A stretch of DNA of 64,000 nt. It comes from Burkholderia metallica. GTDB lineage: Bacteria > Pseudomonadota > Gammaproteobacteria > Burkholderiales > Burkholderiaceae. Of the stretch, positions 3,871 to 17,745 are shown in pieces. The stretch is taken from positions 62,001 to 126,000 of the forward strand of contig NZ_CADFDB010000007.1 in the NCBI RefSeq assembly GCF_902832845.1. Direction: 5' to 3'. Numbering within the stretch: position 1 is the first letter of the stretch; every line of letters begins with the position of its first letter. The position numbers were made by a program, and so were the translations under genes. The notes under the pieces are model-generated. The model was not told the origin of the DNA. It searched no databases and saw only the letters and a list, made by a program, of their open reading frames with translations.

Positions 3871-6800
3871 TCAGGCTCCCGACGGCGCGGCCGGCGTGCC
3901 GCCGGGCGGCGGGCCGTCGTGCGGGTCGCGCTCGTCGCGCTTCACGCGGAACCACGTCGCATACAGCGCGGGCAGGTAGAACAGCGTCAGCACGGTCGCG
4001 CTCGTGATGCCGCCCATCAGCGCGGTCGCCATCGGCCCGAAGAAGTTCGAGCGCAGCAGCGGGATCAGCGCGAGCACGGCGGCCGCGGCCGTCAGCGTGA
4101 TCGGGCGGAAGCGCCGCACGGTCGCGCCGATGATCGCGTCGACGCGGCCGTGGCCGATCGCGATGTCCTGCTCGATCTGGTCGACGAGGATCACCGAGTT
4201 GCGCATGATGATCCCGAACATCGCGATCACGCCGAGCATCGCGACGAAGCCGAACGGCTGGCCGAACAGCAGCAGCGTCGCGACCACGCCGATCAGCCCG
4301 AGCGGCGCGGTCAGCACGACCATCAGCACGCGCGAGAAGCTCTGCAACTGGATCATCAGCAGCGTGAACACCGCGATCGCCATCAGCGGCATCTGCGCAT
4401 TGATCGACTTCTGCGCCTTGGCGCTTTCCTCGACCGAGCCGCCGATGTTGATCTGATAGCCGACCGGCAACTGCGCGCGCAGCGCGTTCAGCTTCGCGTC
4501 GACCGCATGCGTGACGTCGATGCCCTGCGCGCCGGCGCGCACGTCCGACTGCACGGTGATGGTCGGCTGGCGGTCGCGCTCCCACACGACGCCGTATTCG
4601 AGCGTCGGCTCGAAGCGGCCGAGCGAGCCGAGCGGCACCGGGCCGTTCGGCGTCGGCAGCGCGAGGCCGGCGAGCTTCGCCGGATCGACGCGATCGGCCC
4701 GCGGCGCGCGCAGATCGACCGCGATCAGCTTGTCGCGCTCGCGGTACTGCGTGACGGTCGTGCCGGACAGCGTCATCGCGAGGAAGCTCGACACGTCCTG
4801 CGACGTGACGTTCAGCTCGCGCGCCTTCTTCTGGTCGATCTCGAAGCGCACCGAGCGCTCGGCCGGCTCGTCCCAGTCGAACTGCACGTTCACCGTACGC
4901 GTATCGCCGCGCATCGTCGCCGCGACCTTCTCGGCGATCGAGCGCACCGTCGCGATGCTGTCGCCGCTCACGCGGAACTGCACCGGATAGCCGACGGGCG
5001 GCCCGTTCTCGAGCCGCGACAGCCGCCAGCGCACGGCCGGGAACTGCTCGCGCAACGTGGTTTCGAGCCAGGTCGCGAGCTTCTCGCGATCTTTCACCGA
5101 CTTCGCGGTGATCACGAACTGCGCGAAGTTCGGCAACTGAAGCTGCTGGTCGAGCGGCAGGTAGAAGCGCGGCGCGCCGCTGCCGACGAAGTTCACCGAA
5201 TGATCGATCTCGGGGCGCTTGTCGATCACTTTCTCCAGGCGCTCGGTTTCGCGCAGCGTCGCCGCGAACGACGCGCCTTCGGGCAGCCGCAGGTCGACGA
5301 GCAGCTCGGGGCGGTCGGAGCTCGGGAAGAACTGCTGCGGCACCAGCGAGAAACCCATCAGCGCGACGACGAACAGCGCGCCGGTGATCAGCAGTACGAC
5401 GAAGCGCCGCTCGATGCACCAGTCGACCCAGCCGCGCAGCCGCCGGTAGAAGCGCGTGTCGTAGATGTCGTGCTCGTGGTCGTCCGGCAGGTGCGCTTCG
5501 TGCGCGTGACGCTTGCGCTCGGGCAGCAGGTGGTAGCCGAGCAGCGGGATCAGCACGACGGCCGCGAACCACGACGCGATCAGCGCGATCGCCGACACCT
5601 CGAAGATCGAGCGCGTGTATTCGCCGGTGCTCGATTTCGCGAGCGCGATCGGCAGGAAGCCCGATACCGTGACGAGCGTGCCCGTCAGCATCGGGAACGC
5701 GGTGCTCGTGTACGCGAACGCGGCCGCGCGTGCGCGGGTGTAACCCTGTTCGAGCTTCACGGCCATCATTTCGACCGCGATGATCGCGTCGTCGACGAGC
5801 AGCCCGAGCGCGAGCACGAGCGTGCCGAGCGACACCTTGTGCAGCCCGATGTCGAACAGATACATGAAGAGCGCGGTGACCGCGAGTACGACCGGGATCG
5901 AGATCACGACCACCATCCCGGTGCGCAGCCCGAGCGACACGAGGCTCACGACCAGCACGATTGCGACGGCTTCGGCGACGGCTTCGAGGAAGTCGTCGAC
6001 CGAATGCGCGACCGCGTGCGGCATGCTCGATACCAGCGTCAGCTTGAGGCCGGCCGGCAGTTGCGCCTGCAGGTCCTTCGATTCGGCGTCGAGCGCGTTG
6101 CCGAGCCGGATCACGTCGCCGCCCGGCTGCATCGTGATGCCGATGCCGAGCACCGCGTGGCCGTTCGCGCGCATCTGCGTGACGGCCGGATCGTCGTAGC
6201 CGCGCCTGACCGTCGCGAGATCGCCGAGGCGGAACGTGCGGCCGTTGATGCGGATCAGCGTATCGGCGATCGCATCGACGTTGTCGAACTGGCCGCTCGG
6301 CCGCACGAACACGCGATCGTCGGCGCTCGTCAGCACGCCGGCCGACGAGATGTCGTTCTGCGCGTTGATCGCCTGCCCGAGCTGCTGCGGCGAGATGCCC
6401 AGGCGCGTGAGTTGCGCGTTGTTCACCTCGATGAAGATCCGCTGGTCGGGGTCGCCGAAATAGTCGACCTTGCCGACGCCCGGCACGCGCAGCAGCACGG
6501 TGCGCAACTGGTCGGCGTAGTCGTGCAGCTGCGCGGGCGTGAAGCCGTCGCCCTCGAGCGTCCAGATGTTGGTGTAGACGTCGCCGAATTCGTCGTTGAA
6601 GAACGGACCCTGCACGCCGGGCGGCAGCGTATAGCCGATGTCGCCCACTTTCTTGCGGATCTGGTACCAGGTCTCGGGCACGTCCTTCACGGGCGCCGAA
6701 TCCTTCATCGTGAAGAAGATCAGCGATTCGCCGGGGCGCGAATAGCTGCGCAGGAAGTCGATGGCCGGCGTTTCCTGCAGCTTGCGGCCGATCCGGTCGG

Positions 6801-14841: not shown

Positions 14842-14892
14842 GAGGCCGGACACGGCACAATCCGCGGACTCATTTCGTCGTGCATGCGCACG

Positions 14893-15086
14893 GCAAGGTA
14901 CGGGGCCGGGGCGGGCGCTGACGCGTTCGTTCGGGTCGATTGCGAAGCATGGGGTCCAGGCAGGGGCTGAGGCACTGAACTGGATGAATCGCGAAGCATG
15001 GGGTCCAGGCAAGTGCTGAAGCACCAACCTGGATCGACCGCGAAGCATGGGTCCAGGCAAGTGCTAAAGCACCAACCTGGATCGAC
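14893..15086 (+). repeat. Tandem ~49-bp structured repeats in the kguK-kguT leader
   Basis: Three clear copies (14941-14989, 14990-15038, 15039-15086) follow a decayed fourth (14893-14940). Copies 2 and 3 fold into a long hairpin: outer arms GGTCCAGG and CCTGGATC, unpaired CAA on both sides, inner stem GTGC/GCAC with a four-base loop (TGAA or TAAA). The last copy ends directly against the kguT ribosome site (AAGGAG). Copy 1 keeps the outer stem but has a mismatch in the inner one. A single element with the same layout but different stem bases precedes ptxS. Confidence 0.85.
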
Positions 15087-15100
15087 AAGGAGACATTCTG

Positions 15101-16381
15101 ATGGCCAATACACTCGCTGCCCGCCGCTGGTGGACGATCATGCCGATCGTCTTCATCACGTACAGCCTCGCCTACCTCGACCGCGCGAACTACGGGTTCG
15201 CGGCCGCGGCCGGCATCAACCAGGACCTCGGGATCGGCAAGGGCCTGTCGTCGCTCATCGGCGCGCTGTTCTTCCTCGGCTACTTCTTCTTCCAGATTCC
15301 CGGCGCGATCTACGCGGAACGCCGCAGCGTGAAGAAGCTCGTGTTCGTCAGCCTCATCCTGTGGGGCGCTTGCGCGGCGCTCACGGGCGTGGTCAGCAAC
15401 ATCCCGTCGCTGATGGTGATCCGCTTCGTGCTCGGTGTCGTCGAAGCAGCGGTGATGCCGGCGATGCTGATCTACATCAGCAACTGGTTCACGAAGAACG
15501 AGCGCTCGCGCGCGAACACGTTCCTGATCCTCGGCAACCCGGTCACCGTGCTGTGGATGTCGATCGTGTCGGGCTATCTCGTGCACGAATTCGGCTGGCG
15601 CCACATGTTCATCGCCGAAGGCGTGCCGGCCGTCATCTGGGCTGTGTGCTGGTGGTTTCTCGTGCAGGACAAGCCGGCCGATTCGCCGTGGCTCACCGCG
15701 CAGGAAAAGCGCGACCTCGACGCCGCGCTCGCGGCCGAGCAGGCCGCGATCAAGCCGGTGCGCAACTACGGCGAGGCGTTCCGCTCGCCGGCCGTGATCA
15801 AGCTGTGCGCACAGTATTTCTGCTGGAGCATCGGCGTGTACGGCTTCGTGCTGTGGCTGCCGTCGATCGTCAAGAACGGCTCCGCCCTCGGGATGGTCGC
15901 GACCGGCTGGCTGTCCGCGCTGCCGTATCTTGCCGCGACGATCGCGATGCTCGCCGCGTCGTGGGCATCCGACAAGGTCGGTTCGCGCCGGGGCTTCGTG
16001 TGGCCGTTCCTGCTGATCGGCGCGGCCGCGTTCGCCGCGTCGTACGCACTCGGTTCGTCGCACTTCTGGATCTCGTACGCGCTGCTGGTCGTGGCCGGCG
16101 CCGCGATGTACGCGCCGTACGGCCCGTTCTTCGCGATCGTGCCGGAACTGCTGCCGAAGAACGTCGCCGGCGGCGCGATGGCGCTGATCAACAGCATGGG
16201 CGCGCTCGGCTCGTTCGTCGGCTCGTACTTCGTCGGCTACCTGAACGGCGCGACCGGCTCGCCCGTCGCGTCGTATGCCTTCATGAGCGCCGCGCTCGTC
16301 GCCGCGGTGATCCTCACGCTGTCCGTCAAACCCCAGCCGCGCGACACGCATTCGCTCGCGGCGCCGCTGCAAGGAAAATGA
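15101..16381 (+). CDS. kguT: 2-ketogluconate transporter (MFS, anion:cation symporter family)
   Basis: 426 residues and 12 predicted membrane helices. It starts [25 protein letters not shown], the standard N-terminus of the ACS (GudP/ExuT/KguT) branch, and has [30 protein letters not shown] (helix 2-3 loop) and the helix-4/5 motif [15 protein letters not shown]. Inner-membrane symporter that imports 2-ketogluconate with protons. AAGGAG lies 9 bp before the ATG. A 259-bp gap with structured repeats separates it from kguK, unusual inside a compact operon, and suggests separate control of translation or read-through. It is followed after 4 bp by kguD. Confidence 0.9.
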
Positions 16382-17469: not shown

Positions 17470-17597
17470 CCCCGCGCGTCGCATCGACGCGCCGGGCAAC
17501 GCGGCCGGCGGCGTCCCGCGGCGGGTATCCGCGCCAGATCCGGTGCGGCCGATTGCTTTTGCACGCGACCGGGGCGGGTGCCGACGCACCGGCGCGG

Positions 17598-17652
17598 GTC
17601 GATCGCGAAGCAGGGGATCGGCGCAAGCGCTGAGGCGCCAACGCCGATCGAC
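17598..17652 (+). other. Structured leader element upstream of ptxS, related to the kguT repeats
   Basis: Outer arms GATCGGCG (17616-17623) and CGCCGATC (17642-17649), CAA on both sides, inner stem GCGC/GCGC with loop TGAG. Every stem position that differs from the kguT copies differs on both strands, while CAA, TG and the preceding CGCGAAGCA are kept. In addition, GTCGATC (17598-17604) can pair with GATCGAC (17646-17652), competing with the outer stem. AGGAG follows at once (17653-17657), so alternative folding could affect translation. Confidence 0.7.
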
Positions 17653-17667
17653 AGGAGATTCCACCGG

Positions 17668-17745
17668 GTGGCTTACGTTTCCAACAACAAAGGTCCGTCT
17701 GCTCACGAAGCGGCGCGGATCGTACGTCGCGAGGCACGACAGTGA
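17668..17745 (+). CDS. Possible 25-residue leader peptide overlapping ptxS
   Basis: GTG at 17668 lies 10 nt after AGGAG and opens a 25-codon frame (VAYVSNNKGPSAHEAARIVRREARQ in one-letter code, split here as VAYVSNNKGPSAHEA + ARIVRREARQ). Its TGA overlaps the ptxS GTG by 4 bp (GTGA), the normal arrangement for translational coupling. ptxS itself has no strong ribosome site of its own, which makes coupling attractive. No known protein is recognised and the frame is short enough to be chance; it may also be that the frame simply delivers ribosomes to ptxS. Confidence 0.4.
   Translation: MAYVSNNKGPSAHEAARIVRREARQ

Follow-up and report, generated by a model that had tools for sequence, protein, structure and literature searches.

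Do the tandem hairpins ahead of kguT and the related unit ahead of ptxS in Burkholderia metallica form an RNA that senses a sugar acid, or do they belong to a dispersed repeat that has been recruited to these leaders? The window, i.e., the whole 64,000-nucleotide stretch of DNA analyzed here, is part of contig C7, and a window position equals the C7 position minus 62000. The sequence itself, a repeat finder and covariance-model matches identified four head-to-tail hairpin units in the kguT leader, at positions 14892 to 15086 (Table 1), confirming the two full, one imperfect and one decayed copies of the original prediction. As seen in the third unit, the linker CGCGAAGCATGG is followed by an outer stem (GGTCCAGG/CCTGGATC), a CAA/CAA internal loop, an inner stem (GTGC/GCAC), a TGAA loop and a GAC foot. 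These stems had been quoted correctly, as had the second pair of outer and inner stems, GATCGGCG/CGCCGATC and GCGC/GCGC.

Table 1. Hairpin units and neighboring features of the kguT and ptxS leaders (window coordinates)
Feature	Position	Strand	Basis
Decayed first unit, kguT array	14892..14940	+	R2 match C7:76892-76940, 24.4 bits; fold
Imperfect second unit, kguT array	14941..14988	+	R2 match C7:76941-76988, 24.5 bits
Full third unit, kguT array	14990..15038	+	R2 match, 66.3 bits; sequence
Full fourth unit, kguT array, SD-proximal, then AAGGAG	15039..15086	+	R2 match, 60.5 bits; sequence
kguT ribosome-binding site and spacer AAGGAGACATTCTG, immediately 3' of last hairpin	15087..15100	+	sequence
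Downstream MFS transporter gene (kguT of the original prediction)	15101..16381	+	best NCBIfam matches below curated cut-offs
Diverged hairpin 5' of ptxS unit	17566..17601	+	fold; repeat family D1 (repeat finder); no model match at E<=1
Hairpin unit, ptxS leader, then AGGAG	17604..17652	+	R2 match C7:79604-79652, 63.2 bits
25-codon ORF behind the SD that trails the ptxS unit	17668..17745	+	TGA overlaps ptxS GTG

The kguT leader, ahead of the ATG at position 15101, is predicted to fold with a z score of -4.31, and none of 200 shuffled sequences was equally stable. No Rfam match was obtained for the window at the gathering threshold, nor for positions 14850 to 15110 at E<=5, in agreement with the earlier failure to name a known RNA family. 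The linker has the form GCNNNGC, in which GAA is the commonest triplet (e.g., window positions 14991 to 14997); GCGAAGC is an unusually stable DNA mini-hairpin. A possible short ORF begins at GCATGGG and, judged by eye, reaches a stop after four codons in many copies and continues in the kguT units.

In the ptxS leader, the presence of a related unit was borne out by a match of 63.2 bits, but the unit is not strictly single, given the diverged hairpin on its 5' side (17566 to 17601). A ribosome site does follow the unit, as predicted, but this SD lies 10 nt before a 25-codon ORF (17668 to 17745), whose stop overlaps the ptxS GTG at 17742, and it need not act on ptxS directly. The encoded peptide, VAYVSNNKGPSAHEAARIVRREARQ, has a nearly identical counterpart in two other species (L103 and L139), and translational coupling or a leader peptide are possible roles for the ORF. 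The ptxS leader is predicted to fold with a z score of -2.69, with 2 of 200 shuffles as stable.

Both leaders carry members of a family of palindromic elements of about 49 to 50 nt. The consensus order is a GC-NNN-GCATGGG linker, an 8-bp outer stem, a YAA/YAA internal loop, a 4-bp inner stem, a TRAA loop and a CGAC foot, with the core and linker conserved and the stems variable. A first covariance model was built from six units, and a refined model from 18 units of the same genome. The refined model finds 20 copies in that genome at E<1e-4, most of them training units, and the three good window units have E-values of 2.4e-11 to 7.7e-9 there. Because both models had been trained on these units, among others, independent support comes from the matches in other genomes. 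The 18-unit alignment has 94.4% of its cells paired, compared with 26 to 36% when one strand is slid by 1 to 3 columns.

Elsewhere in the B. metallica genome, the unit precedes nadA, hpaD (3,4-dihydroxyphenylacetate 2,3-dioxygenase), atpG (ATP synthase gamma), the lactate permease gene lctP, prpC (2-methylcitrate synthase), a class III alcohol dehydrogenase gene and a PanE-family reductase gene, all identified above NCBIfam cut-offs, as well as Rid-like, GlcD-like, acyl-CoA-ligase-like and MFS genes, whose matches fall below the cut-offs. An SD and start codon were found no more than 130 nt downstream in 19 of the 21 loci checked in this genome. One copy lies ahead of 23S rRNA (23S start placed by eye; tRNA-Ile and tRNA-Ala lie upstream). 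By eye, many of the downstream genes have a catabolic or central-metabolic look. A reading of the unit as an operator for PtxS was set aside because the unit precedes unrelated genes.

This distribution bears on the possibility of a tandem riboswitch that responds to 2-ketogluconate or some other sugar acid, which the occurrence of two copies in one sugar-acid gene cluster and the tandem layout would favor. The cis-acting sugar-acid sensor of the original prediction found no support; it is unlikely because the element precedes many unrelated genes, with the same sequence and structure, and adjoins rRNA and a tRNA gene. Moreover, Rfam offers no match, and among the 30 best-matching of 60 genomes the number of hairpins at this spot of the kguT leader varies, by eye, between a single degenerate one and five or more units. 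Such a riboswitch was therefore rejected on distribution, the element not being confined to the leaders of one metabolite's genes, and we regard it as very improbable. The nadA leader (L013), searched in Rfam at E<=5, returned 19 matches, all below the gathering score and all but one (mir-143) upstream of the array.

Among the loci compared, stretches of the B. metallica genome and of genome G024 match named Burkholderia contigs at 88 to 94% over 1 to 3 kb, versus about 84% or less for other genera, which places both in Burkholderia (Burkholderiaceae). The element was found in all 25 genomes examined from this genus and in none of 16 genomes representing other families within the order. When the family was sampled evenly, matches at E<=0.001 appeared in 128 of 299 genomes, spanning 8 of 25 genera, and 41 of 41 genomes of the genus were among them; only 20 candidates were scored per genome in this sample, so its per-genome counts are floors. 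With 150 candidates scored, four genomes picked partly for their many matches had 78, 75, 65 and 83 (E<=0.05 or 0.01). None of the 25 same-genus genomes had fewer than 7 matches; in other genera, some had a single one. A pattern scan of named genomes recovered 48 stretches in Paraburkholderia, Trinickia, Caballeronia and Burkholderia. The element also occurs on replicons of a plasmid collection from Burkholderia, Paraburkholderia and Caballeronia; phage records gave no match, and three plasmid regions with the element had no annotated features. Units are mostly spaced by 49 nt, with spacings of 45 to 51 nt also seen, and the longest array read, upstream of a G006 gene recognized by eye as atpC, has 13 hairpins, each of 45 to 49 nt.

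The position of the arrays was scored by a script requiring an SD, a start codon and a long ORF within 90 nt of the array end. It covered 113 arrays from 262 matches, i.e., all 112 of one set and the best 150 of 176 of another. A sense start lay downstream in 83 of the 113 arrays, a median of 12 nt separating the end of the array from the start codon; two arrays had a start on the opposite side. Several of the other 30 arrays have, by eye, an SD and ATG that failed the ORF filter; the rest comprise copies of Trinickia and some of Paraburkholderia and Caballeronia that do not lie before a start (by eye), one copy preceding tRNA-Ser, and one locus whose sequence stops within the array. In the Burkholderia genome G024, 78 matches form 49 arrays, of which 35 are single copies; flanking sequence was available for 44. 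A sense start was found for 37 of these 44 and an antisense start for 5, three arrays counting in both groups. Among the seven that lack a sense start, three look like copies in rRNA operons, and L089 is followed by an SD and an ATG that opens a short ORF. For G241, a genome of another genus, 26 loci were taken from the best 30 matches, leaving out four in the same arrays; a sense start was found at 24, of which 2 also had an antisense start. In the rRNA operon of G006 (L154), copies lie in sense before 23S (1942 to 1989) and in antisense after it (4943 to 4988; 23S by eye). The leader bias that had been proposed as a test was thus evident in each of the samples taken. The element is non-randomly placed, with a strong preference for leaders, in which its copies typically stop a few bases short of the SD.

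Several arrangements bear on mobility. In G024, one unit is interrupted by a complete 50-nt unit, and an uninterrupted copy of the host lies alongside (L100/L101). This nested composite is present at two loci on two contigs, and nested units occur at four loci in all, two of them with other hosts. In G241 and other genomes, the loop region of one unit is occupied by a second unit (GTAAG^...AGCTAAAGC) at 12 loci, a composite that may have had a single origin and then spread. In G241, this nesting of one unit in the loop of another gives composites of about 99 nt (L361, L350, L353 and others). For L361, the sole composite folded, the predicted structure is one long rod in which the inner linker, GCTTTGC, pairs with the outer core. 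A second dispersed repeat, CCCCCACGCTCACT..CGTTCGCTGCCCCC, also hosts units; filled copies were found in G024 (2) and Trinickia mobilis (3) and empty copies in T. mobilis (3), and its other arm likewise has filled and empty copies. The second repeat CCCCCACGCTCACT..CGTTCGCTGCCCCCCGAGGGGG holds hairpin copies at L182, L178, L203, L205, L251 and L249 (T. mobilis and Burkholderia G024).

At the filled and empty copies of the host repeat that were compared, there was no target-site duplication, and the boundaries of some filled sites deviate by a few bases from the empty sequence; this comparison takes gain and loss together. We infer from these arrangements that the element still moves or did so until recently. 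The number of copies, their nesting and the occurrence of both occupied and empty sites support the second option of the original prediction, a dispersed hairpin repeat recruited here. Taken with the leader bias, the signs of mobility make the element look mobile and also non-randomly placed.

The same nested copies and filled and empty sites would be expected of a purely selfish or neutral palindromic repeat, whose placement would simply be target choice by an insertion machinery that prefers DNA immediately 5' of GGAG. Copies that lie outside leaders, in Trinickia and beside rRNA and tRNA genes, fit such a repeat as well. Against a GGAG target, the insertion sites inside other repeats lack GGAG.

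As for a mobilizing enzyme, the sole PF01797 match in the B. metallica genome is a Y1/RAYT-like protein encoded on contig C12 (L094:1459-2172, + strand), which scores 54.2 bits against NCBIfam NF047646, with a cut-off of 80. All 30 orthologues fetched have QVQ at what we take, from knowledge of the family rather than from an alignment, to be the HUH site. The protein is 94 to 100% identical across the genus genomes sampled and looks domesticated. It is present in 283 of 299 family genomes, including element-free genera; 155 of the 171 element-free genomes have it, and none of the 16 genomes without it carries the element. The 9 loci around its gene yielded one weak element match (16.9 bits), and a PDB sequence search with the protein gave no match at E<=1. 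With QVQ in place of HUH, no strong copy adjacent and a presence in element-free genera, the protein found no support as the mobilizer.

Next, the leaders were compared between species. Array length differs between close species. The kguT leaders of several species are left with a single degenerate hairpin, and several species without the core consensus at kguT still have, by eye, a paired hairpin before the SD, a persistence that argues against a purely selfish repeat. At nadA, inspection by eye of the 30 best-matching of 61 genomes showed a hairpin flush with the SD, ending at AGGAGAT, in 29 species. In the remaining one (L333), nadA and its SD are kept and the hairpin is absent; judged from this comparison, the species appears to have lost it, and a missing copy is again what a selfish repeat would allow. 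Within arrays, the 3'-most unit scores above the first in 54 of 65 cases, below it in 3 and equal in 8, by a simple score of pairing and consensus match (arrays with at least two matches, in leaders and elsewhere). This polarity may reflect either selection on the SD-adjacent hairpin or entry of new units there; the better-kept 3' unit therefore speaks against a selfish repeat only in part, as directional insertion would give the same.

The nadA site was also used to follow compensatory changes. The alignment comprises 27 of the 30 rows (26 distinct), one hairpin-less row and two with indels being left out, and has 97.8% of its cells paired. Seven of 12 pairs changed on both sides, with 40 double-sided changes versus 10.1 in shuffles and a covariation of 0.392 versus 0.160 when shuffled. 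The search for further compensatory changes in homologues, the other test proposed at the outset, was thus positive, and at nadA these changes occur at one orthologous site, as expected of a cis-acting RNA. The original observation that pairing is kept while the stems differ on both sides holds. Calling it the signature of a selected RNA structure was too strong, because a DNA palindrome, or the repair of an imperfect one, gives the same signal.

A strand-specific signal was sought in the mismatches of the transcript strand. G-U exceeded A-C by 127 to 59 in 196 unique hairpins, a set picked with a model that possibly favors G-U. In 160 unique hairpins selected by the core, after dropping 13 with fewer than five Watson-Crick outer pairs, the outer stem gave 68 to 28, falling to 37 to 25 once its outermost pair was excluded. 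With that pair left out, the signal is not clear; a DNA palindrome would give such a result, which also fits a selfish repeat. The predicted unpaired probability of the SD was 0.530 with the native array and 0.459 with a shuffled array, and was higher in 50 of 72 leaders; the effect is small, the 72 leaders are not independent, and the fit to an insulating role is weak. On this balance, a purely selfish or neutral repeat seems to us a real possibility, though not a likely one.

The conservation of core and linker while the stems vary might instead indicate that the hairpin is the target of a trans-acting regulator, an RNA-binding protein or an sRNA, for a carbon-catabolism regulon. Such a regulator would suit the look, by eye, of the many catabolic or central-metabolic genes among those named downstream, and the Burkholderia double-hairpin sRNAs described in PMC5688073 and PMC6321483, which are predicted to act on ribosome-binding-site regions of metabolic genes. 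The variation of array length between close species and the copies at rRNA and tRNA genes speak against it, and we consider it unlikely. Equally doubtful, in our judgment, is a portable translation-control module, i.e., a mobile 49-nt hairpin that would insert in sense 5' of SDs, grow SD-proximally and be recognized, in RNA or DNA form, by a factor dedicated to it, perhaps the HUH-less Y1/RAYT-like protein, thereby linking scattered metabolic genes into one post-transcriptional regulon.

The hairpin family is apparently unannotated. Literature searches, whose scope excluded most subscription papers, returned no paper about the element, and a search by the core string had a sole match, PMC5968390. 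In Table 4 of that paper, the core appears as an "orphan CRISPR" repeat, without identified cas genes, of Paraburkholderia terrae, and a related repeat, carrying the core or part of it, is given for P. oxyphila. This entry in Paraburkholderia is what would speak for orphan CRISPR arrays as the nature of the element; in the arrays read, whole units repeat back to back with no unique spacers, and single copies are common, making up 35 of the 49 arrays of G024. We give this reading practically no weight. Since the units repeat whole and without spacers, the published "orphan CRISPR" entries are probably the hairpin element. An Rfam or repeat-database entry for the element would be useful and would end such calls.

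In comparison with known systems, the element is of the REP/MITE kind rather than a riboswitch. Like REP and BIME sequences, it is a short extragenic imperfect palindrome with a central mismatch and a conserved foot, present in tens of copies, in arrays and clusters, and its dispersal outside genes was confirmed. It differs in its foot, mostly CGAC (GTCG on the complement) in place of GTAG/GGAG, and in that REP/BIME sequences lie 3' of genes, whereas most examined copies of the element lie in sense 5' leaders near the SD. REP/BIME sequences of enterobacteria and Pseudomonas are associated with RAYT transposases, whereas the sole PF01797 protein here has QVQ at the expected HUH site and no strong element copy next to its gene. 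Leader hairpins that stabilize mRNA or open the SD, such as that of ompA, share the stable hairpin just upstream of the SD, whereas the element is one dispersed, tandemly multiplied family before dozens of genes. The tandem riboswitches for glycine and guanidine-II also combine tandem leader hairpins with covariation, but the element has neither a gene-specific distribution nor an Rfam match. ERIC sequences are, like the element, noncoding, intergenic and hairpin forming, and they are mobile, as the element probably is. The MITE-like RU-1 to RU-3 (PMC2759123) share these features; compared with MITE-like sequences, the element is only about 49 nt long and showed no target duplication at the sites compared.

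Overall, the kguT and ptxS units belong to a dispersed, mobile-looking family of elements of about 49 to 50 nt and probably act there as a general leader element that senses no ligand and has a possible role in cis. Such a role in the mRNA is plausible, although the unclear G-U signal, the nadA leader devoid of a hairpin and the single degenerate hairpins at kguT in several species count against it; where the element is active, its most likely form would be that of a local hairpin in the mRNA, adjacent to the SD. Transcribed leaders would then carry a row of stable local hairpins that stops just short of the SD; these would keep upstream sequence off the SD and may block decay from the 5' side. 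Because of this shielding and possible block to decay, a copy landing before an SD could be tolerated or favored, and it might then multiply by slippage and by further insertion at the SD-proximal end. No ligand would be sensed, and at kguT and ptxS the element would not be a 2-ketogluconate switch.

Close species differ in whether a given leader has no hairpin, one or many, a natural series in which the tuning of translation or of mRNA decay could be tested. Every one of the 41 genomes sampled from the genus carries the element, many of them with tens of copies, at an expression-sensitive site of metabolic operons that include ATP synthase.
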